From assembly GCA_903875445.1 (NCBI GenBank), contig CAIQWD010000085.1:1-64000 (forward strand): 64,000 bases of DNA, in the 5' to 3' direction. Every line of letters begins with the position of its first letter. Position 1 is the stretch's first letter. This document shows, piece after piece, positions 40,417 through 53,736 of this stretch. The translations under genes were made by a program, and so were the position numbers. The stretch is from an uncultured delta proteobacterium (GTDB lineage: Bacteria > Desulfobacterota > Desulfobulbia > Desulfobulbales > Desulfocapsaceae). The notes under the pieces were generated by a model. It ran no database searches. It saw only the letters and a program-made list of their open reading frames with translations, and was not told the DNA's origin.

Positions 40417-41436
40417 ATGAAGTACGCCTTCTCATTCCTAGCAGTCATAGCGTTGATACTGATTGCTTGGCTCGGATCTCAGATACCGGGGATGCCCTAT
40501 TTATTTGGTGTCGCCCTGCCGTATCTGGCCATGATGATCTTCCTGGGCGGCTGTGTCTACAAAGTGGTGCAATGGGCGAAATCCCCGGTACCATTTCCGA
40601 TACAGACTACCTGCGGGCAGGGCAAATCGCTGGATTTTATCAAGCATGACAGGCTGGAAGCTCCTTCCACGAACGCCGAAGTGGTAGCAAGAATGTTTTT
40701 GGAAATAGTGACCTTCCGGTCTCTTTTTAGAAACACCAAATCGGAAATTCATGATGGACCGCAAATCACCTATGAGTCATCCAAATGGCTGTGGGTATTT
40801 GCGCTGATTTTCCACTATTCCTTTCTGTCCATCGTAGTCCGTCATATGCGTCTTTTCCTTGATCCGGTTCCGGCCTGGATCGGCTGGTGGGAATTCATCG
40901 ACGGCATCTTTGAAGTGGGTGCGCCCGGCTGGTATATAAGTGATGTCGGTCTGGTTGTAGGCTGTCTCTTGCTGTTCAGCAGAAGATTGATTACCCGCCA
41001 TGTTCGTTATATCTCTTTGATGAATGATTATTTTCCCCTGGTTCTAATCTTTACCATCGCGGTAACCGGTATTCTCATGCGCTACGTACTGCGAACCGAC
41101 ATTGATATCGTCAATATCAAACACCTCACTGTCGGATTGGTTTCCTTGTCTCCGACCATAGGCGCCAAAATCGGCTCCATTTTCTTCATTCATGTGTTTC
41201 TGGTCTGTGTACTGCTTGCCTATTTCCCCTTCAGCAAGCTCATGCACTTTGCCGGCGTGTTTCTCAGCCCAACCAGGAATCTCAAAAACAATAGTCGGGC
41301 AGTGCGCCATGAGAATCCTTGGAATCCACGGATCCTCCCCCACTCCTACGCCGGATATGAAGATGAATTCCGCGAGTTTATGGTTGATGCGGGAATCCCG
41401 GTTGAAAAGGAGTTATCCCCGGCAAAGGATGAATAA
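40417..41436 (+). CDS. dsrM: DsrM, membrane cytochrome b subunit
   Basis: This is 339 aa, related to NarI. It binds two hemes b and exchanges electrons with the quinone pool. Six membrane helices are visible, with candidate heme ligands in IFHYSFLSIVVRHMRLF (about residue 130) and in FFIHVFLVCVLL and FSKLMHFAG near the C-terminus. The ATG at 40417 follows GAGGT at a good distance. dsrK follows after 42 bp. It is the first gene of a standard dsrMKJOP operon. Confidence 0.93.
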   Translation: MKYAFSFLAVIALILIAWLGSQIPGMPYLFGVALPYLAMMIFLGGCVYKVVQWAKSPVPFPIQTTCGQGKSLDFIKHDRLEAPSTNAEVVARMFLEIVTFRSLFRNTKSEIHDGPQITYESSKWLWVFALIFHYSFLSIVVRHMRLFLDPVPAWIGWWEFIDGIFEVGAPGWYISDVGLVVGCLLLFSRRLITRHVRYISLMNDYFPLVLIFTIAVTGILMRYVLRTDIDIVNIKHLTVGLVSLSPTIGAKIGSIFFIHVFLVCVLLAYFPFSKLMHFAGVFLSPTRNLKNNSRAVRHENPWNPRILPHSYAGYEDEFREFMVDAGIPVEKELSPAKDE

Positions 41437-41478
41437 TACGGTTATTGACCCAAAACCAGCTTAAGAGGAATAGTTACG

Positions 41479-43107
41479 ATGGCAGTTCCAAAATTACAAC
41501 AATTATCGAAAAGCGTAGTGCAGGGACCATCCTTGGCGACAGGAGCGATACCTACCAGGGACTGGATGGACATCCCGGTGGTTTTCAAATCCGGGAATTA
41601 CGCCTACCCTGCCAAAAAAGAGAAGGTGGAATACCTGAATAAGCAGTCCGGACTGCATTTTCCTAATGCCCGGGAGTGGTCTCCCGAGGATGAAGACTGG
41701 AAACTACCGGAAGGCTGGCAGGAGATCATTCTCAAAGGCCTCAAGGAACGGCTTGAGAAGTTCCGCTCCTTGAAAATCTTTATGGATTGCTGCGTTCGTT
41801 GCGGAGCGTGCGCCGACAAGTGTCATTTCTTTCTTGGCACGGGTGATCCCAAAAATATGCCGGTACTGAGAGCTGAACTCTTGAGGTCGGTATACCGAAA
41901 CGATTTCACTCTGGCCGGGAAAATTCTCGGTAAAATGGCCGGAGCAAGGGAGATGACGGTAGCCGTTCTGAAGGAGTGGTTCATGTACTCCTATCAATGT
42001 ACCGAGTGTCGGCGTTGCTCGGTGTTCTGTCCCTACGGCATTGACACCGCCGAAATAACCATGATGTTGCGGGAACTTTTGCACCTGGTCGGAGTAGGTA
42101 TCAACTGGATCCTCGAGCCGGCTTCCAATTCCAACCGCACTGGTAACCATATGGGGTTACAGCCCCATACCTTCAAGGATAATGTCGAGTTCCTCGTCGA
42201 TGATGTGGAAAATCTTACCGGGGTGAAACCGAATATATCCTTTAATAGAAAGGGTGCGGAAATACTCTTTATCACCCCATCGGCCGACGTCTTCGCCGAA
42301 CCTGGGCTGTATACCGCTATGGGCTACCTGATTCTCTTTGAGGCTATCGGGCTTGACTACACCTGGTCCACCTATGCCTCCGAGGGCGGTAACTTCGGTC
42401 TTTTTACCAACAATGAGACGATGAAGAAACTCAATGCGAAGATGTACGCCGAGGCGAAACGCTTGGGTGTGAAGTATATCATCGGTGGTGAGTGCGGTCA
42501 TATGTGGCGTGTCGTCCATCAGTATATGGATACCATGAACGGTCCTGCCGATTTCCTGGAAATCCCGAAATCTCCGATTACCGGCACAGTCTTTGATAAC
42601 GCCGCATCGACGAAAATGGTGCACATCAGTGAGTTTACCGCCGATCTTATTAAAAACGGCAAAATTAAGCTCGATAAGAGCCGAAACAGTCACGTCAAGG
42701 CGACCTTTCACGATTCCTGTAATACCGCCCGGGCGATGGGGCTTCTTGAAGAACCGCGTTACATCCTCGATCACGTTGTCGATTGGGTCGAGATGCCGGA
42801 GAATACTATTCGCGAACAGACCTTCTGCTGCGGTTCCGGGACCGGCCTCAATACCGATGAGATCATGGAACTGAGAATGCGCTCTGGATTGCCGCGTGCC
42901 AATGCAGTGAAATATGTTCATGAGAAACATGGCGTGAACATGCTGTCCACTGTATGTGCAATCGACAGAGCGACACTCACCTCCCTTATGAACTACTGGA
43001 ATCCCGGCGTCGGAGTCTGTGGGTTGAGTGAGCTGGTTGCCAATGCGATTGTTCAAGAGGGTGAAACACGCGGTGAGCTTGATGAAGGCCTCCGTACCAT
43101 GCTATAG
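41479..43107 (+). CDS. dsrK: DsrK, cytoplasmic iron-sulfur (HdrD-like) subunit
   Basis: This is 542 aa. It is the catalytic-type subunit of the complex, related to heterodisulfide reductase HdrD, and faces the cytoplasm, where it reduces the DsrC disulfide. Two 4Fe-4S motifs are seen: CVRCGACADKCHFF (about residue 107) and CTECRRCSVFCPYG (about 174). CCG-type motifs follow (HDSCNTARAMG about 413, EQTFCCGSGTGLN about 450), giving the special cluster site. GAGGA lies upstream of ATG 41479. It is followed by dsrJ after 32 bp. Confidence 0.95.
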   Translation: MAVPKLQQLSKSVVQGPSLATGAIPTRDWMDIPVVFKSGNYAYPAKKEKVEYLNKQSGLHFPNAREWSPEDEDWKLPEGWQEIILKGLKERLEKFRSLKIFMDCCVRCGACADKCHFFLGTGDPKNMPVLRAELLRSVYRNDFTLAGKILGKMAGAREMTVAVLKEWFMYSYQCTECRRCSVFCPYGIDTAEITMMLRELLHLVGVGINWILEPASNSNRTGNHMGLQPHTFKDNVEFLVDDVENLTGVKPNISFNRKGAEILFITPSADVFAEPGLYTAMGYLILFEAIGLDYTWSTYASEGGNFGLFTNNETMKKLNAKMYAEAKRLGVKYIIGGECGHMWRVVHQYMDTMNGPADFLEIPKSPITGTVFDNAASTKMVHISEFTADLIKNGKIKLDKSRNSHVKATFHDSCNTARAMGLLEEPRYILDHVVDWVEMPENTIREQTFCCGSGTGLNTDEIMELRMRSGLPRANAVKYVHEKHGVNMLSTVCAIDRATLTSLMNYWNPGVGVCGLSELVANAIVQEGETRGELDEGLRTML

Positions 43108-43139
43108 ACAATCCTGAACAGAACATAGGAGTAAAGGTA

Positions 43140-43541
43140 ATGTACAATAAAGGAACAATAATACCGGGATTGATCATCTTTGTCCTGTTGATAACTTTCC
43201 CGCTCTGGTTCAACGCGTTCTCGAAAGCAAGCACGGCACCGAAAATTGAGCTGCCACCAGGTGGACAGAAGGAGTGTGTCAAACCTGCTGCGGAAATGCG
43301 CGCTCAGCATATGGTACTGCTCAACGAATGGCGAGATGACGTCCTGCGTAACGGTAATCGTGTTGCAGTGACTGCCGGTGGGAAGGAATACCGCAAGGGT
43401 TTACAGACGGCTTGTATGGCCTGTCATACCAACAAGGAGAAATTTTGCGACTCCTGCCATACGTACACATCTGTAAAACCCTACTGCTGGGATTGTCATT
43501 TGACCCCGAGTGTAGCTGCGGCAAAGAAGGAGACAAACTAA
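43140..43541 (+). CDS. dsrJ: DsrJ, periplasmic triheme cytochrome c
   Basis: This is 133 aa with an N-terminal membrane anchor (about residues 5-24). Three heme motifs are packed at the C-terminus: CMACH, CDSCH and CWDCH (about residues 98-125). The extra Cys upstream (KECVKPAAE, about 46) matches the Cys that serves as an unusual heme ligand in DsrJ. AGGAG precedes ATG 43140. Its stop overlaps the dsrO start by one base. Confidence 0.93.
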   Translation: MYNKGTIIPGLIIFVLLITFPLWFNAFSKASTAPKIELPPGGQKECVKPAAEMRAQHMVLLNEWRDDVLRNGNRVAVTAGGKEYRKGLQTACMACHTNKEKFCDSCHTYTSVKPYCWDCHLTPSVAAAKKETN

Positions 43542-44365
43542 TGGATATGCAAAGAAGGAATTTTCTAAAAATTGCCGGAGTCACGGCTCTGGCCGGCATC
43601 AGTGCACCGGTTGTTGTCAATCTGACATCATCTGCCCTTGCCTCTTCCGATCAGGGGCAAACCGCAGTGGCGCATCCTGCACCTTCCGGTGCGCATGGAG
43701 AGGATGCCCCTCAGGGAGTACGCCTTGGCCTACTCATTGATATGCGAAAACTCTACGGCCATCCCGAGCTTCTTGATAAGGCGACCGCAGCATGCCATAA
43801 AGTACACAATGTTCCGAAGATCGATAACAAAAAAAGTGAGATCAAGTGGATATGGAAGACACCTTTTGCCAATGCCTTCACCGATCAATCGAATAACCAT
43901 GCCTCAAAAACTGCCAGGGAAAACGATTTCTTAGTTCTCTGTAACCACTGCGATGAGCCCCCTTGTGTTCGGGTCTGTCCGACCAAGGCGACTTTTAAGG
44001 ACAAAAAGACCGGCATCGTTGCTATGGATTACCATCGCTGTATCGGTTGCCGTTTTTGTATGATGGGTTGTCCCTATGGGGCACGAAGTTTCAACTGGAT
44101 GGATCCGCAACCCTTTATCAAGGAATTGAATCCTAATTTCCCTGCTCGAATGCGCGGTGTTGTCGAGAAATGCAACTTCTGTGGGGAACGTCTGGTACTT
44201 GGCAAAGAGCCCGCGTGTGTAGAGGCCCTCAAGGAAGTCGGAGCGATCGTTTTTGGGGATCTAAATGATCCCCAATCAGAGATTCGCCGAATTCTTGACA
44301 AGGAGCATACCATCCAACGGCAAGCAGCCCTTGGAACCAAACCGTCAGTCTTTTACATAGTGTGA
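43541..44365 (+). CDS. dsrO: DsrO, periplasmic ferredoxin subunit
   Basis: The start is ATG 43541, sharing a base with the dsrJ stop and preceded by GGAG; the product is 274 aa. The N-terminus MDMQRRNFLKIAGVTALAG is a twin-arginine signal, so it is exported folded. Ferredoxin-like Cys groups follow: CNHCDEPPCVRVCP (about residue 137), CIGCRFCMMGCPYG (about 167) and CNFCGERLVLGKEPAC (about 211). It pairs with DsrJ and DsrP on the periplasmic side. dsrP follows after seven bases. Confidence 0.94.
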   Translation: MDMQRRNFLKIAGVTALAGISAPVVVNLTSSALASSDQGQTAVAHPAPSGAHGEDAPQGVRLGLLIDMRKLYGHPELLDKATAACHKVHNVPKIDNKKSEIKWIWKTPFANAFTDQSNNHASKTARENDFLVLCNHCDEPPCVRVCPTKATFKDKKTGIVAMDYHRCIGCRFCMMGCPYGARSFNWMDPQPFIKELNPNFPARMRGVVEKCNFCGERLVLGKEPACVEALKEVGAIVFGDLNDPQSEIRRILDKEHTIQRQAALGTKPSVFYIV

Positions 44366-44372
44366 GGGTGTC

Positions 44373-45548
44373 ATGATAGAAAAAGCGTTAAAAGGAAACT
44401 CTAACTACTGGATGTGGCTCGCATTTCTGAGCGCATTCATTGCGGTGGGAGGGATCTGTTATCTCCGACAGTTTCTCTATGGTATGCATTTGACAGGTAT
44501 GGGGCGCGACTTGTCCTGGGGATTATATATTTCCCAGTTCACCTTCCTGGTCGGTGTGGCGGCTGGAGGCTTGATGCTGGTTCTCCCCTATTATATCCAT
44601 AATTATAAGGCGTTTGGCAGAATTACCATTCTTGGTGAATTCCTGGCTATTGCCTCTATCGTTATGTGTCTCATGTTCATTATGGCCGATATTGGTCAAC
44701 CGCTGCGCGGACTGAATATGATTCTGCACCCGACCCCGAACTCCATGCTCTTCTGGGATATGGTGGTATTGCTCGGGTATCTGGGCCTGAACGTGATCTG
44801 CGGATGGGTTATTCTCACCGCCGAACGAAAGCAGGTCAAGCCTCCGAAATGGGTCTATTTTTTCGTTTATCTTTCTTTGCCGTTCGCAGTCTCGATCCAT
44901 ACTGTAACTGCAATGCTTTACTGCGGACTGCCTGGTCGTCATTTCTGGCTGTCGGCGATCACCGCCCCACGATTCCTTGCTTCCGCCTTTGCAGCCGGTC
45001 CGGCTTTGATTGTTATTGCCTGTCTGGTCATGAAACGGATAGCTCATTTTGATGCCGGCCAGGAAGCGATCAAAAAGCTGACAACGATTATTATGTATGC
45101 GGCGCTCATCAATGCTTTCTTTGTTGGTTTGGAATTTTTTGTCGGTTGGTATTCAAATATTCCCGGACACAAACATTCACTCGAGTACCTCTTTTTTGGC
45201 CTTGAGCACCATGGCCATGTGTACAACAATCTGGTGCCGTTCATGTGGACCTCGGTTTTCTTCTGTTTTGGGGGACTTGCACTTTTTGGCTATATGAAGA
45301 TAAAAGATGCCTTCAACGATGCATGGGTTGGTATTGGCTGTCTCATGATTTTTATTGCTCTCTGGCTCGACAAGGGGCTCGGCTTTGTCATGGGTGGCCT
45401 TGTTGTTAATCCCCTTGACGAAATCGTCGAGTATTATCCGACCGCCAATGAGATTGGGATTACTTTAGGGATCTGGGCTACCGGTTTTTTCCTGGTTACC
45501 GTTCTCTACAAAATTGCTATAAAAGTTGAACATGAGGTGGAAGGCTAG
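44373..45548 (+). CDS. dsrP: DsrP, NrfD-like integral membrane subunit
   Basis: This is 391 aa with about ten membrane helices; it is a member of the NrfD/PsrC family that works with quinones. The N-terminal region GMGRDLSWGLYISQFTFLVG and the downstream LIVIACLVMKRIAHFDAGQE are typical of DsrP. It ends with VEHEVEG, followed at 33 bases by a strong intrinsic terminator, so it closes the operon. The five dsr genes are in the usual order. Confidence 0.93.
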   Translation: MIEKALKGNSNYWMWLAFLSAFIAVGGICYLRQFLYGMHLTGMGRDLSWGLYISQFTFLVGVAAGGLMLVLPYYIHNYKAFGRITILGEFLAIASIVMCLMFIMADIGQPLRGLNMILHPTPNSMLFWDMVVLLGYLGLNVICGWVILTAERKQVKPPKWVYFFVYLSLPFAVSIHTVTAMLYCGLPGRHFWLSAITAPRFLASAFAAGPALIVIACLVMKRIAHFDAGQEAIKKLTTIIMYAALINAFFVGLEFFVGWYSNIPGHKHSLEYLFFGLEHHGHVYNNLVPFMWTSVFFCFGGLALFGYMKIKDAFNDAWVGIGCLMIFIALWLDKGLGFVMGGLVVNPLDEIVEYYPTANEIGITLGIWATGFFLVTVLYKIAIKVEHEVEG

Positions 45549-49041: not shown

Positions 49042-50313
49042 ATGATAGAAATACAACCTGTTGCAAAAGTGAATGCTGTCATAGAAGTGCCCGGCTCGAA
49101 AAGCCTGACCCAAAGAGCGCTCATCGCAGCTGCTTTGGCAAAAGGAGAAAGCAGGCTTATCGGGCCGCTGGAGAGCGAGGATACTGCGTATTCGGCCCAA
49201 GCCTTAATGCAGATGGGTGTGGTTATAGAGAAAAACAGAGATTGGCGGATATGCGGCAATGGCGGCTTGATAAAACCATCCGGGGAGCCGATTTTTCTTG
49301 GTAATAATGGGACTGCCACGCGTTTTCTTACCTCTGTTGCCGCTCTTGGCAATTCGCAGTATACCATCGACGGCGATGCTCGCATGCACCAGAGACCTAT
49401 CGGGCCGTTGCTGACTGCCTTGCGAGGATGGGGAGTAGATATAAAATCACAACGGGGAACCGATTGTCCGCCTCTGCAGATCAATGGCCGGGGCTTGGCC
49501 GGCGGGACGACGATTTTGCCCGAAGGCAAAAGCAGCCAATACCTTTCCTCCCTCTTGCTGGTAGCACCGTATGCCAAAAGACCGGCTACTCTCAGGGTTG
49601 AGGGACAGATTTTCTCCAAACCCTATGTTGAGATGACTCTCGCGGTCATGGCCGATTTCGGCATCCTGGTAGAGTGTGCCCGTGATTTCAGCTCCTTTTC
49701 CGTGCCGCAGGGCTGTTATCAGGGCAGGGAATATCGCATCGAGGGAGATGCCTCCAATGCTTCGTATTTCTGGGCGGCAGCGGCGGTCACCGGCGGTCGG
49801 GTAACAGTGACTAATATCCCGGTTCCGTCGTTGCAGGGTGATGCCATGCTGGTGCCGTTACTCGGTCGCATGGGCTGCCATGTGGAGAAAACCGGTGAAT
49901 GCATAACTTTGCAGGGTGTTGAGAGGCTTGAGGGGATACACGTTGATATGGGAGATATGCCGGATGTGGTTCCGACGCTGGCGGTTGTTGCCGCCTTCGC
50001 CCACGGGACGACGGTGATTGAAAATATTGCGCATTTGCGCATCAAGGAGTGTGATCGCCTTTCTGCGGTGGTAACGGAACTCAGCAAATTAGGGGTAAAG
50101 GTCGAGGAACGGGAATCGGCCATGATTATTCATGGCGATGGTGGGGTTCATCTTAAAGGCGCCGAGATTTATACCTATGCCGACCATAGAATGGCGATGT
50201 GTTTCGCGGTTGCCGGTCTCAGGATACCTGGGGTGAAAATTAGCGGAGAAGAATGTGTCGGAAAGTCCTTCCCCGATTTTTGGCAGCGGTTCGCTCTTCT
50301 GGCCGGCAAGTAA
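49042..50313 (+). CDS. aroA: 5-enolpyruvylshikimate-3-phosphate synthase
   Basis: This is 423 aa; AroA joins phosphoenolpyruvate and shikimate-3-phosphate in aromatic amino acid synthesis. Motifs: PGSKSLTQRALIAAALAKG (residues about 16-34), LGNNGTATRFLTSVAALG (about 88-105), the Arg-containing MHQRPIGPL and, near the end, RIKECDRLSAVVTELSKLG and YADHRMAMCFAVAGL. The LGNNGTATR loop, rather than the E. coli LGNAGTAMR, is the type seen in some class II enzymes. A strong stem-loop ends the gene. Confidence 0.95.
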   Translation: MIEIQPVAKVNAVIEVPGSKSLTQRALIAAALAKGESRLIGPLESEDTAYSAQALMQMGVVIEKNRDWRICGNGGLIKPSGEPIFLGNNGTATRFLTSVAALGNSQYTIDGDARMHQRPIGPLLTALRGWGVDIKSQRGTDCPPLQINGRGLAGGTTILPEGKSSQYLSSLLLVAPYAKRPATLRVEGQIFSKPYVEMTLAVMADFGILVECARDFSSFSVPQGCYQGREYRIEGDASNASYFWAAAAVTGGRVTVTNIPVPSLQGDAMLVPLLGRMGCHVEKTGECITLQGVERLEGIHVDMGDMPDVVPTLAVVAAFAHGTTVIENIAHLRIKECDRLSAVVTELSKLGVKVEERESAMIIHGDGGVHLKGAEIYTYADHRMAMCFAVAGLRIPGVKISGEECVGKSFPDFWQRFALLAGK

Positions 50314-50332
50314 GACGACTTTGGCTAGTTGC

Positions 50333-50374
50333 AAAACCGGTCATGAGGCTTTCGCCGCCTCATGACCGGTTTTT
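50333..50374. terminator. Terminator after aroA
   Basis: AAAACCGGTCATGAGGC (50333-50349) and GCCTCATGACCGGTTTT (50357-50373) form a perfect 17-base stem with a seven-base loop, followed by another T. A-runs and T-runs at both ends allow action in both directions, fitting the convergent CsgG-like gene. Confidence 0.85.
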
Positions 50375-50396
50375 CATGGAGCCTCTACCTGAAAAA

Positions 50397-51182
50397 CTAT
50401 TTCTGTCTGTCTATTTTAGCAACCGCTTCCTGAACCAAACGCTGCACCACGGTATCCAAGGTAACCAGTTGCGAGGCGTGACCAGACATCCCGAGGATAG
50501 CCTGGGACTTGCGTCCTGTTTCCATCTTCTTCTCAACATAACCTGTGGATACCTGTTCGGAGGTGGATGCATCGGTTATCTTGTAACGCAGCCCCACGAG
50601 CCATACGGCAGCATGCTCGCTTGCCTTTGCCGATGAAATGGCAGTGTCACTGATTGCTCCGGCTCTTCCACCGACCGCGGTCCCAACGATTGAACCGATA
50701 GCATTGCCGTCAAATCCCTGTCCGGCTTCACCAACTTCCTCAGCTTTGAGAATGTCGAATTTGACAAACCATTGGGTCGAACTGAATTTTCCTTTCTTAA
50801 ATTTCTTCAGAGCATCGGGGGAGCCCATGTTCACTGCCAGTTCGATCTCCTTGAGCATCGGCCCCAAATCGGATCGTTCAAGCACCTTGAAATTGGCATT
50901 GCTCAGTTCGACTTCGGCAAAATCGGCAATATTGTTTGGAGTCACTTTTTGGGTAAAAGTAGCACTGCTGCTTTTAATATTTCCAGGAAGGACTATGAGC
51001 GTTGGGCCTTTCTTCCCGGCGTTGGCATATTCAACCGGTTGATACATGTTATCGTCGGCAACTCGATTAGCCTCTTGGGACGCAGCCCCGCCGGCACCGG
51101 TACTGGTAGGAACACAGCCGGAAAGGAAAACCGAAAGGTTGATAAGAGAGAGAGAAAGCATAACATAAAAAAGGTTTTTCAT
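50397..51182 (-). CDS. CsgG-like outer-membrane lipoprotein
   Basis: The start is ATG 51182 with AGGAGG nine bases upstream; the product is 261 aa. The signal ends at a lipobox (FLSGC, Cys about residue 23), so the protein is lipid-anchored. The remainder resembles the CsgG family: the FKVLERSDLGPMLKEIELAV strand-helix (about 104-123), SEHAAVWLVGLRYKITDAST, and a C-terminal helix LDTVVQRLVQEAVAKI. CsgG forms the curli export pore; here no csgA, csgB, csgE or csgF genes are present, so another role is likely. It is the last gene of a three-gene minus-strand series. Confidence 0.7.
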   Translation of the reverse strand: MKNLFYVMLSLSLINLSVFLSGCVPTSTGAGGAASQEANRVADDNMYQPVEYANAGKKGPTLIVLPGNIKSSSATFTQKVTPNNIADFAEVELSNANFKVLERSDLGPMLKEIELAVNMGSPDALKKFKKGKFSSTQWFVKFDILKAEEVGEAGQGFDGNAIGSIVGTAVGGRAGAISDTAISSAKASEHAAVWLVGLRYKITDASTSEQVSTGYVEKKMETGRKSQAILGMSGHASQLVTLDTVVQRLVQEAVAKIDRQK

Positions 51183-51270
51183 AATTCCATCCTCCTGAAC
51201 TTTTAAAGAAGTTATTCCATGCAGCTTACAGTAGCAACCTGTTTGTTGCATGAGGTCGTAATACGCACCA

Positions 51271-52653
51271 TCAATTATTCACCGCGCCGGATGCACCAGC
51301 CCCAATGCCGGGATTCATTCGGGTCACCTTGTCGCGCAGATCTTTATCCTGGATAAGTTTATTAATACGCTCCGGGGAAGCTGTAGCCAGCGATGCCGGA
51401 AGGCTGTTCTGCATTGATTGCTGAAGCAATTCCGGGTGAGATCCGGCATCAACGGCGATCCGGACCACGTTGCCATGCTGCGACATCAGTTTCAATTGAG
51501 GTCCATCGAGTTTGGCGTTCAACGGCTTGAGAACGGTACTGTTAATTGTCTGGGCAAAATTCCCACCGCTGCTGGTACATTCTACCTCAAACTGGCTAAG
51601 TCCGTTTGTCTCAAAATTGATGAGTTCGGCATTAAGGATGTTTCGAAGTCCGGCAAACTCATCTTTAAAAAGCATAGCGGTATCATAATCGGGCAATCCG
51701 GTGAGTTGGATCTGGTATTTTTGCGAAGGCTTTAGCAGCTGTGACTCGAAAAAGTCCTTGGAAAACTCTTCACCTATGAGTTTGCCGATGTCTTCCAAGG
51801 CTTGATCTTCGTCGGCCCATGCTTTGTTCTTCGGAACCTTATTGTTAAAATAGATTTCTTCTCCGGTATGGTTATTAATACATTTAACGGTCCAGGAGGT
51901 AAGGACATGCTTGGTTACCTGGAGGCCTGAAGCCTTGAGGTTGATTGATGTCTGTTTGAATTTTGCCTCGCCGATGACCGAGAAGTCGGCGACCTTCCGA
52001 TTCGACTTGGCGGCCCCGGCATCCTGCTGCAGCAGTTGGGTATATGCTTCCGACCAAACCCGATAGCCGAAATTGACAAAATGTTCTTTCAGGATATTGT
52101 CGGCGATTGATGAATTCTCCGGAACGTCGTCAGAGCTTCGTTTGGCATCACGAACAACGACTGCCACCGAGATGGTCGGATTGCCATGTTCTTTGATGAG
52201 GCTGAGCCTGTTTTCACGGGACAAGCTCTGCAGGGCGGTTTTGACATCGGCAATAAAGACCTCAGCCTTGATCTGCATATGCATTAAACCGTTTTCGCCA
52301 AGTCTTGGGGGAGATTGTTCGAGTATCTGTTTTATCAATCCCTTTGATTTGGAAAGCACCTTGTCCTCGATGAGGAGGTAGTTTTCAACCAGGGTGCTGC
52401 TTTCCACATACACGCCGACGGCCTTTTCTATCGCCTGCCGTTGGGCATCCCGGCGCAGATCTTCAACCATTAGGCCCTTGTCTTTCTTGTACATTTCGGC
52501 ATTCGGATCGGCCAGTCCCTCGGCGGTGACGATAAGGGTTTCCGCCTTGTCAGCGCTAGTTGCAATGCTTGGAGCAAGAAACAGTACTCCGGCCATGAAC
52601 AGACAAAATGTCCGGCAGAACCGGATAGAAAATGTGTACATGCTGGTTTTCAT
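51271..52653 (-). CDS. Exported protein with FlgT-like N-terminal domain
   Basis: This is 460 aa. A signal peptide covers about residues 1-33 (ending ATSA). The segment LIVTAEGLADPNAEMYKK, then DLRRDAQRQAIEKAVGVYVE and the following VLSKSKGLIKQI, resembles the N-terminal domain of FlgT, a flagellar H-ring protein, and of LPP20-like lipoproteins. The middle has a LLKEHFVNFGYRVWSE-like fold unit and the C-terminus (about 330-440) is unassigned. No flagellar genes are nearby. It lies between the CsgG-like and 225-aa genes, five bases from the latter. Confidence 0.65.
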   Translation of the reverse strand: MKTSMYTFSIRFCRTFCLFMAGVLFLAPSIATSADKAETLIVTAEGLADPNAEMYKKDKGLMVEDLRRDAQRQAIEKAVGVYVESSTLVENYLLIEDKVLSKSKGLIKQILEQSPPRLGENGLMHMQIKAEVFIADVKTALQSLSRENRLSLIKEHGNPTISVAVVVRDAKRSSDDVPENSSIADNILKEHFVNFGYRVWSEAYTQLLQQDAGAAKSNRKVADFSVIGEAKFKQTSINLKASGLQVTKHVLTSWTVKCINNHTGEEIYFNNKVPKNKAWADEDQALEDIGKLIGEEFSKDFFESQLLKPSQKYQIQLTGLPDYDTAMLFKDEFAGLRNILNAELINFETNGLSQFEVECTSSGGNFAQTINSTVLKPLNAKLDGPQLKLMSQHGNVVRIAVDAGSHPELLQQSMQNSLPASLATASPERINKLIQDKDLRDKVTRMNPGIGAGASGAVNN

Positions 52654-52657
52654 CTGA

Positions 52658-53335
52658 TCATTTGCCTCCCCTGCAATAGTCTTTAAAAAGCTGATAGGTG
52701 ATTTCCTGGGATTGTTTTTTTACAAGTTTTTGGATGGTGTTGAGGACATCGGCATCGGAGAAGGTTGTCTCATTGATCTGGGCGCTGGAGATCAGGTTGC
52801 CGCTACGATCGAGGAGAGAGAGGTTGATTGTCACAAACACCTCATCAATATTGACGACTCTATTGATTTGGCTGCGGGTGGAAATGATGCCCTTGAGCAT
52901 AAAATTGGCGCTCAGCCGGTCGGCGGCGGACACAGCCGCATCAATGTTATTGTTGAGAACCGCCTCCTGCTCGACCCTGGCGATTTGCGCATTAATTTCG
53001 GCAGCCGTATAGGTCTTCAGGCCAAGTTGCTGAAAGCCGCCATTGAGTTCATCGACCAAGTTGCCGTATACCGATTTTTTCGTAGCGGATTTGCTGTCCC
53101 AATCCCGGGAGTAAAGGGTATTATCCCGGTGAATTTCGCCGATCATCGTGGCGATTTTTGCAGCTTTCAGAGACTTTGGGCAATGCAATGTGGCGAGAGA
53201 ATTGCCTCTGCCGGTTGTTGTGTCCTCGATGGCCTCTTTTTGCGCCTCCTCCGAGAAAGAAAAGCAGGAAGCGGAATACGGGGAGAGGATGGCAATAATA
53301 ATGAGCAAGAGAGCAAGTCGGAATCTTGATTTCAT
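52658..53335 (-). CDS. Exported protein of the CsgG/FlgT-like operon
   Basis: This is 225 aa with a signal peptide (about residues 1-25, ending SCFS). The mature protein carries three Cys. The middle (LNGGFQQLGLKTYTAAEINA, then RLSANFMLKGIISTRSQINR, then VFVTINLSLLDRSG) has the alpha/beta pattern shared by CsgG- and FlgO-like proteins, but the match is weak. It is the first gene of the series and overlaps nothing; the downstream FlgT-like gene starts four bases after its stop. Its function is unknown. Confidence 0.6.
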   Translation of the reverse strand: MKSRFRLALLLIIIAILSPYSASCFSFSEEAQKEAIEDTTTGRGNSLATLHCPKSLKAAKIATMIGEIHRDNTLYSRDWDSKSATKKSVYGNLVDELNGGFQQLGLKTYTAAEINAQIARVEQEAVLNNNIDAAVSAADRLSANFMLKGIISTRSQINRVVNIDEVFVTINLSLLDRSGNLISSAQINETTFSDADVLNTIQKLVKKQSQEITYQLFKDYCRGGK

Positions 53336-53535: not shown

Positions 53536-53736
53536 TTATCGACGATCCGAGCCTTCGGGGGCATGTCCGAGGATAGCCCCCTTCATGACTCCGACATATT
53601 CGTCCTGCAGGTCGAAGCCGGTGCAAAGAGTTATGATGGGTGAATTGTTTGTGATGTTCCTTGCCAAAGATTGTAATGGAAGTACCAATTCATTTATGGG
53701 TAAGTGAAGAAAACCCGTCAGCAAATGGACAATCAT
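53536..53736 (-). pseudogene. Frameshifted remnant of a SAM hydroxide adenosyltransferase (DUF62)
   Basis: This 66-codon frame starts at ATG 53736 overlapping the mltA stop as ATGA. Residues 33-57 (PIITLCTGFDLQDEYVGVMK and on) match the start of the SAM hydrolase/hydroxide adenosyltransferase family, which reads roughly IITLTTDFGLxDEYVGVMKGVIL. At about 53556-53560 the match jumps to the next frame, where PKARIVD continues the family pattern, then meets a stop; the remaining 230 or so residues of the family are absent. The first 32 residues have no counterpart. The Asp of the TDFG motif is also changed to Gly. It is therefore a decayed, truncated copy. Confidence 0.65.

Follow-up and report, generated by a model that had tools for sequence, protein, structure and literature searches.

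A three-gene operon of exported proteins

This work concerns an operon of three exported-protein genes at positions 50397-53335 of a 64,000-nucleotide stretch of DNA (the window), taken from contig CAIQWD010000085.1 of an uncultured Desulfocapsaceae bacterium (assembly GCA_903875445.1; here G000, the window genome). A first-pass annotation, made from the sequence without database searches, had described a tight minus-strand operon here and had proposed that its products form a pore, ring or export device. The operon itself is confirmed: three consecutive minus-strand open reading frames (ORFs) lie there, with spacings of 4 bases (A-B) and 88 bases (B-C). Gene A (52658..53335) encodes a 225-amino-acid (aa) exported protein with weak similarity to LpoB, gene B (51271..52653) a 460-aa exported FlgT-like protein, and gene C (50397..51182) a 261-aa lipoprotein with a CsgG fold and a conserved glycine zipper at residues 159-171. 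By reading of the sequence, A and B begin with signal-like N-terminal segments, and purine-rich sites resembling ribosome-binding sites precede all three starts.

Read from its first ATG, the ORF of gene C spans 50397-51251 and encodes 284 aa. The true start is probably the ATG at 51182, and the 51251 of the first-pass annotation too early, because AGGAGG precedes the former and translation from there yields a lipoprotein signal whose last residues are SGC. The lipoprotein cysteine is present in 17 of the 18 aligned homologs; the aligned stretch of the remaining one (L051) starts beyond that position. Past the 3' end of C, and before a convergent gene ending at 50313, folding predicts a strong minus-strand hairpin (50333..50373) with a 17-bp stem and a 7-base loop (-39.1 kcal/mol for 50321-50385). 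It is missing from the terminator list, which was made with a pattern that demands a T run 3' of the stem.

Structural relationships of the three gene products

The structural relations expected by the first-pass annotation, of C to CsgG and of B to FlgT, are found in the predicted folds. For C, the model (mean predicted local distance difference test score [pLDDT], 64.7; predicted template modeling score [pTM], 0.62) gave CsgG (4uv2) as its top Foldseek match (E 3.6e-7; template modeling [TM] scores, 0.41/0.49), but the window protein matches Pfam CsgG below the curated cutoff (E 0.018; 14.8 bits versus 20.8). At E<=0.1, the same family is detected in 11/18 C homologs, with a best value of 0.00032. 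In structure comparisons with VIA, C aligns to CsgG (6l7a) with a Z score of 13.0 (root mean square deviation [rmsd], 4.8; 168 aligned). The runners-up, FlgT (Z 11.9) and PelC (Z 11.4), are both within 2 of CsgG, and the fold alone therefore does not single out CsgG; TraT scores Z 8.6 (rmsd 5.4; 132 aligned). We do not regard C as an ordinary curli CsgG: the Pfam match is below cutoff, and hhalign with E. coli CsgG gave E 0.022 over 20 columns. A profile of C, which retains 51 to 89% identity to the window protein across 17 relatives, found nothing better than E 1.6 among the sequences of solved structures.

Two stretches of the C model fall below a pLDDT of 50 (153-190 and 225-239), and these are presumably where the membrane hairpins of CsgG would be expected. 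The alignment places the glycine zipper at the first hairpin in 17/18 C homologs (L037 lacks it), and a 13-column gap relative to E. coli CsgG falls at the second. Because the zipper stands at the first membrane hairpin of CsgG, the role of pore assigned to C by the first-pass annotation is doubtful despite the fold; as a sequence feature, the zipper would equally fit membrane helices of the TraT type. A second copy of C lies at L139 (9061-12346, genome contig C42), followed by genes for an OmpA-domain protein and an FHA-GGDEF protein, a set that is perhaps linked to cyclic di-GMP.

The predicted structure of B (mean pLDDT, 75.1; pTM, 0.65) comprises an N-terminal domain of the FlgP/FlgT type (~39-142), a middle domain resembling CsgG and TolB-N (~157-309), and a further C-terminal domain (310-403). 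Its top Foldseek match is FlgT (8z5n; E 3.1e-7 over 408 columns). Over the whole chain, TM is only 0.20/0.25 and rmsd 24.5, so that the FlgT likeness of B rests on single domains, namely, the N-terminal and middle ones, in which the model has the FlgT fold. VIA found HpaA (8t8d) nearest to the middle domain (Z 10.7; rmsd 4.5; 140 aligned), with FlgT (3w1e) lower at Z 8.1 (rmsd 8.1; 213 aligned). Residues 310-403 have no clear FlgT counterpart in structure comparison; we attribute their matches to ribosomal chains (Z 6.6 to 7.1) to an arrangement that is common. At the level of sequence families the FlgT assignment did not hold, as none of 26 B homologs matched FlgT_N or FlgT at E<=0.1. In NCBIfam, B matches LipL46 (E 0.029; 13.1 bits against a cutoff of 400), and the best hit of a B profile among solved-structure sequences has an E value of 0.24. 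Identity to the window protein ranges from 44 to 88% across 25 aligned relatives.

Gene A of the window matches Pfam LpoB with E 0.0069 (16.7 bits, below the curated cutoff of 22.3). The family is detected at E<=0.1 in 17/18 A homologs, always weakly (best, 0.00039). An A profile reached only E 0.057 among solved-structure sequences, and hhalign found no sequence relation between A and C.

A second locus with FlgP-like, CsgG-like, and repeat proteins

Profile searches identified a second locus in the window genome, at ~112010-116270 of contig C69, which encodes a repeat protein, a 116-aa exported protein, a CsgG-like lipoprotein (family cl20), and a tandem FlgP-like LPP20 protein (family cl3). 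The repeat gene lies at 112010-113413 and encodes units of 36-37 residues; the locus continues with the other three genes and runs to the contig end. In two distant genomes (L039 and L042), both halves are merged into a single cluster with A-B-C. There the cluster includes cl20, a small exported protein, cl3, a DUF2807 protein, and one or two copies of the 36-residue-repeat protein; L039 additionally has a trypsin-PDZ (HtrA-like) protease. The first-pass annotation had likened A-B-C to the FlgO/FlgP/FlgT set of Vibrio. A FlgP counterpart does exist, in the form of cl3, but it belongs to the second locus.

The cl3 protein consists of two mutually homologous halves (E 4.4e-8), and profile comparison shows the N-terminal domain of B to be homologous to the second half (E 8.3e-6). 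Among solved chains, the cl3 profile matches some that are named FlgP (E 1.7e-5 and 3.4e-5) and others that carry just the name "Lipoprotein" (best, 6.9e-7). Pfam LPP20 exceeds its cutoff in the cl3 protein of L044 (26.5 versus 25.9 bits) and is found at E<=0.1 in 5/11 members; the own-genome protein (E 0.0023) is below the cutoff. For cl20, hhalign with E. coli CsgG gave E 1.5e-5 over 172 columns in a rough comparison of one sequence with a profile of three rows, the own-genome member not being among them. Pfam CsgG is detected in 6/13 cl20 members (best, 2.2e-8), and hhalign found no sequence relation between cl20 and C. Judged by sequence, cl20 would be the better channel candidate of the two.

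The repeat proteins have signal-like starts and a strong periodicity at 36 residues, or at 74 in a doubled variant; a 777-aa repeat protein of the window genome reaches an identity of 0.72 at lag 36. This genome has further repeat matches at C18:2641-4953 and at C69:69195-70013; on C24, a divergent one adjoins a second cl20 gene. Pentapeptide-type and designed beta-helices match the repeat profile with a best E value of 1.9e-5, which may be compositional; we take this as only a hint, from which a beta-solenoid may be guessed. The repeat pattern G..N.A...[SQ] has a curli-like appearance, but we claim no relation to curlin, since QxGxxN is absent from all 15 repeat proteins tested. This repeat family is the candidate for the linked substrate gene that the first-pass annotation had thought worth looking for, although the linkage is seen only in other genomes or at the second locus of the window genome itself. 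We also considered a 128-aa small family of the second locus as CsgF and rejected it (Pfam E 0.081; hhalign 0.036).

Several observations were made around these genes in other genomes. A same-genus genome encodes a 1453-aa repeat protein of the same 36-residue type (L115:9978-14339). At L118 (6982-11639), a repeat-subtilase fusion gene and a gene for an extracytoplasmic function (ECF) sigma factor stand beside a repeat-protein gene, and a sigma factor pair that is alike by similarity stands beside repeat genes at L143 (9555-14222). This suggests regulated expression and processing. The L118 gene between the sigma factor and the fusion may, as a guess from its position, encode an anti-sigma factor; it has no such Pfam match. 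Small exported proteins at L039 (2624-3169), L042 (12987-13337), and L052 (2719-3147) and in clusters 22, 23, and 36 have little overall similarity, and they share with the FlgP-like proteins a "GNxxLM"-like start of the mature part. Four of them gave no meaningful match against Pfam.

Distribution across genomes

To follow the operon beyond the window genome, 25 B loci were fetched by scanning genome contigs with B, and the presence of A and C at those loci was determined by tblastn at E 0.01. Conservation of the cluster, which the first-pass annotation had named as a check, was borne out: 15/25 loci (L031-L042, L048, L051, and L053) carry relatives of A, B, and C with their order unchanged, and L055 is cut by a contig end, with B and C visible. 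The hosts of B loci include Desulfobulbaceae and Desulforhopalus metagenome-assembled genomes (MAGs), Desulfarculales, a Desulfovibrionaceae MAG, and Fundidesulfovibrio, as well as a Sulfurospirillaceae MAG, Halochromatium, Thiohalocapsa, other purple sulfur bacteria, a Magnetococcales MAG, and a Verrucomicrobia MAG. When the single B protein was searched against 146 genomes of the window's order, 18 matched, five of them near full length (G000, G067, G131, G006, and G078); the remaining matches were partial, mostly N-terminal, and to relatives. Automatic ORF picking can choose shadow ORFs (e.g., opposite cl3 or opposite the C69 repeat gene), and the counts given below are therefore from profile searches.

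Co-occurrence was surveyed in a single, evenly drawn sample of 395 phylum genomes, with thresholds of E 1e-25 for B and cl3, 1e-15 for C, and 1e-20 for the repeat. B was found in 11 genomes, spread over six families, and cl3 in 13, including all 11 with B; cl3 alone occurs in G393 and G541 (Fisher P for co-occurrence, 1e-19, a value that ignores shared ancestry). The distance between B and cl3 is <=4.1 kb in 10/11 genomes, the window genome being the exception. C occurs in 5/395 genomes, every one within the B set. As it was not found in the other 6 of the 11 genomes holding B, the constant pair is B and the FlgP-like protein. The repeat profile matched 4/395 genomes: G000, G485, G541 (cl3, no B), and G256.

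A second set comprised 30 genome entries, all chosen for holding B except G124. G006 and G153 have identical coordinates, which leaves 29 distinct genomes; G485/G154 and G375/G167 likewise have common coordinates between the two samples. Among the 30 entries, cl3 is found in 27 (E 0.001), repeats in 16, cl20 in 15, and FliF in 25. In G164, cl3 is matched only weakly and over part of its length (1.4e-6 over 81 positions), so that strong matches number 26. Counted over distinct genomes, repeats occur in 15, cl20 in 14, and both in 13 (Fisher P 1.9e-5, again ignoring shared ancestry), with FliF in 24. Of the 13 distinct genomes with both a repeat and cl3, 12 have a repeat match <=4 kb from cl3 (exception, G169). 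G146 and G147 have repeats and lack cl3 and cl20. Neither B, cl3, cl20, nor the repeats have a match in the same-genus genome G124, which is 98% complete. Curlin (PF07012) was found in none of the 30 entries, the window genome included, with a positive E. coli control; the first-pass statement that curli genes are lacking is thus upheld. Its parallel statement on flagella fits the neighborhood of the operon; FliF is present on another contig of the genome.

A proposed envelope ring-and-channel assembly

We lean, with confidence only somewhat above even, toward the reading that A-B-C makes up one of the two loci of a nonflagellar envelope ring-and-channel assembly that exports a repeat protein. 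From the homologies, co-occurrence, linkage, and gene order described above, we infer ring or oligomer formation, a channel, the direction of export, and the substrate. The repeat protein would leave by Sec, and cl20 would serve as its outer membrane channel. B and cl3 would assemble into periplasmic rings on the inner face of the outer membrane, in the manner of FlgT and FlgP in polar flagella, and the lipid-anchored, CsgG-fold C together with A would supply ring or adaptor subunits. The repeat protein, if it is a beta-solenoid, would be cargo displayed as a fiber or layer. In a Campylobacter motor paper, FlgP, Lpp20, and FlgT are treated as one fold, and an insert located after the helix is said to go with ring formation (PMC12222027). 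The alignment of B and cl3 runs through the segment where this insert would lie. The device imagined in the first-pass annotation is hence partly supported: its direction agrees with ours, but the operon is one half only, and the unit is larger and differently built, extending over both loci.

A number of findings weigh against this reading. Of the 25 B loci, nine are without A or C at the tblastn threshold used (one of them, L052, has an A-like gene by clustering), and six of these nine carry a WD40-caspase-cluster gene instead. In other ARRANGEMENTS, purple sulfur bacteria (L043-L047 and L054), B stands near genes for a TPR lipoprotein, a FlgP-like protein or shadow ORF, a WD40-caspase protein, and an OmpA-TPR protein. 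L145 has a similar TPR lipoprotein/WD40-caspase/OmpA-TPR set plus an A-like gene. The WD40-caspase genes near B were Pfam checked in L043, where PDZ and peptidoglycan-binding domains are also present, and in L145. The B core thus has at least two outfits, and this is the main reason why our confidence in the export reading stays only a little past the midpoint. Only 2 of the 11 B-bearing genomes of the phylum contain the repeat family, and G256 has repeats with neither B nor cl3; other genomes would therefore need another substrate, or the system another function. In the window's genus, A-B-C is surrounded by lptD, mltB, mltA, and aroA-like genes, away from the second locus. The own-genome cl20 protein (L111) has no Pfam CsgG match, and the cl20 profile found nothing below E 0.079 among solved structures, with CsgG not among the matches. 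No homolog of CsgF, or of CsgE, for which no search was made, was identified. Finally, every entry with C at the B locus, except G146, has FliF, and absence of flagella therefore gives no argument against a flagellar role for C.

Among known systems, the closest parallel to the channel is curli or type VIII secretion, in which CsgG acts with CsgA, CsgB, CsgE, and CsgF. Like that system, ours has a CsgG homolog (cl20) beside a short-repeat protein of the Sec-exported type, and C has the CsgG fold. It differs in the lack of curlin and of recognized CsgE or CsgF, in the addition of FlgT- and FlgP-like partners, and in its repeat, whose period is 36 and which lacks the QxGxxN motif. The minimal curli repeat is given as X6QXGX2NX10 in the work of Dueholm (2012), where CsgG matches outside curli are considered likely paralogs of a larger family (PMC3521004). 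C also resembles the surface exclusion lipoprotein TraT in fold and in a glycine zipper that could form membrane helices, but its match to TraT is weaker than that to CsgG. TraT is an alpha-helical barrel without a pore (PMC11733297).

More tentatively, and with less than even confidence, we propose that these genes represent a new outer membrane export machine, apart from curli and flagella, in which FlgT/FlgP-like rings around or feeding a CsgG-type channel would secrete 36-residue-repeat beta-solenoids into an undescribed surface fiber or layer; in other clades, the ring core would be fitted with a WD40-caspase module. A full-text literature search, which left most subscription journals outside its reach and is no proof of absence, returned no paper on such a system. 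Texts naming two of CsgG, FlgT, and LPP20 together concerned flagella only, and CsgG was in none of them. If the proposal is true, FlgP/FlgT ring proteins are not specific to the flagellum, and their relatives travel with a CsgG homolog and large repeat proteins. It would open a testable route to how flagellar outer membrane disks were recruited and would point to a class of surface polymer, so far undescribed, among sulfate reducers and related bacteria. Now that the genes, their partners, and a natural negative from the same genus (G124) have been defined, the question is directly testable.

Alternative explanations

The alternative that survives best, though we consider it improbable, holds that B, cl3, A, and the TPR lipoprotein form an envelope stress or conflict module whose output depends on the clade, being WD40-caspase in Chromatiaceae and others; the link to repeats would then be secondary. 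At L145, a TPR lipoprotein, a cl22-like protein, cl3, B, an A-like protein, WD40-caspase, and OmpA-TPR are encoded in a near-continuous row, and WD40-caspase-cluster genes lie near B in L043-L047 and L054. G078, of the window's own order, has a distant caspase-cluster match beside B (4.8e-6), and a paper on putative conflict systems contains the words caspase, WD40, and Chromatiaceae (PMC10907252). Yet in the window's genus and at L039, L042, and L048, the partner genes encode CsgG-like and repeat proteins, and the caspase cluster neither included nor matched any gene there.

A flagellar accessory, that is, an outer membrane ring of the FlgO/FlgP/FlgT type encoded apart from the flagellar genes, was rejected as the principal explanation and seems to us quite unlikely. 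The likenesses are real: the domains of B resemble FlgT, and cl3, which matches solved FlgP, is a tandem of two FlgP-type domains, much as FlgQ of the Campylobacter FlgP/FlgQ disk resembles a 2-FlgP repeat (PMC12222027). FliF is moreover present in the window genome, as in most other entries and in nearly all of those with C. However, no FliF match accompanies B and cl3 in G078 (99% complete) or in G159, G160, and G168, whose completeness is not given, and G146 likewise has B without a FliF match; conversely, G124 has FliF and neither B nor cl3. B has no FlgT_N match, and its C-terminal domain is not matched to that of FlgT. The recurrent neighbors of B and cl3 are cl20, repeats, DUF2807, or TPR/caspase genes and, as far as annotated (no systematic search for flagellar neighbors was made), not motor genes.

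It is just as unlikely that A-B-C is a peptidoglycan-linked module, with A as an LpoB-type activator and the operon belonging with the mltA- and mltB-like genes (MltA and SLT_2) that lie upstream on the same strand in an order kept in close relatives, since the LpoB matches, however widespread among A homologs, are all weak, that of the window protein is under the cutoff, and A-B-C stands at L037-L042 with no mltA- or mltB-cluster gene in the fetched flanks.

Neighboring genes and other observations

Between the mltA-like gene and A, a SAM hydroxide adenosyltransferase (SAM_HAT) gene survives as a short remnant at 53551-53658 on the minus strand of the window. At the same place, L032-L035 have a full-length SAM_HAT-cluster ORF (Pfam checked in L033); the best match of the remnant is 72% over 36 aa.

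At L056 (8314-10968, genome contig C18), a 375-aa exported protein with a weak FlgT_N match is paired with a 487-aa exported protein that has CsgG, FlgO, and weaker FlgT_C matches. The pair is adjoined by an OmpA-cluster gene and by another gene that we take to be FecR-like, and it is found also in the same-genus genome G067 (L058).

Elsewhere in the window, at 40417-45548 on the plus strand, consecutive genes encode a nitrate-reductase-gamma-like protein, an iron-sulfur protein with CCG domains, and an NrfD protein. We take this row to resemble the DsrMKJOP operon, in keeping with a sulfate reducer.

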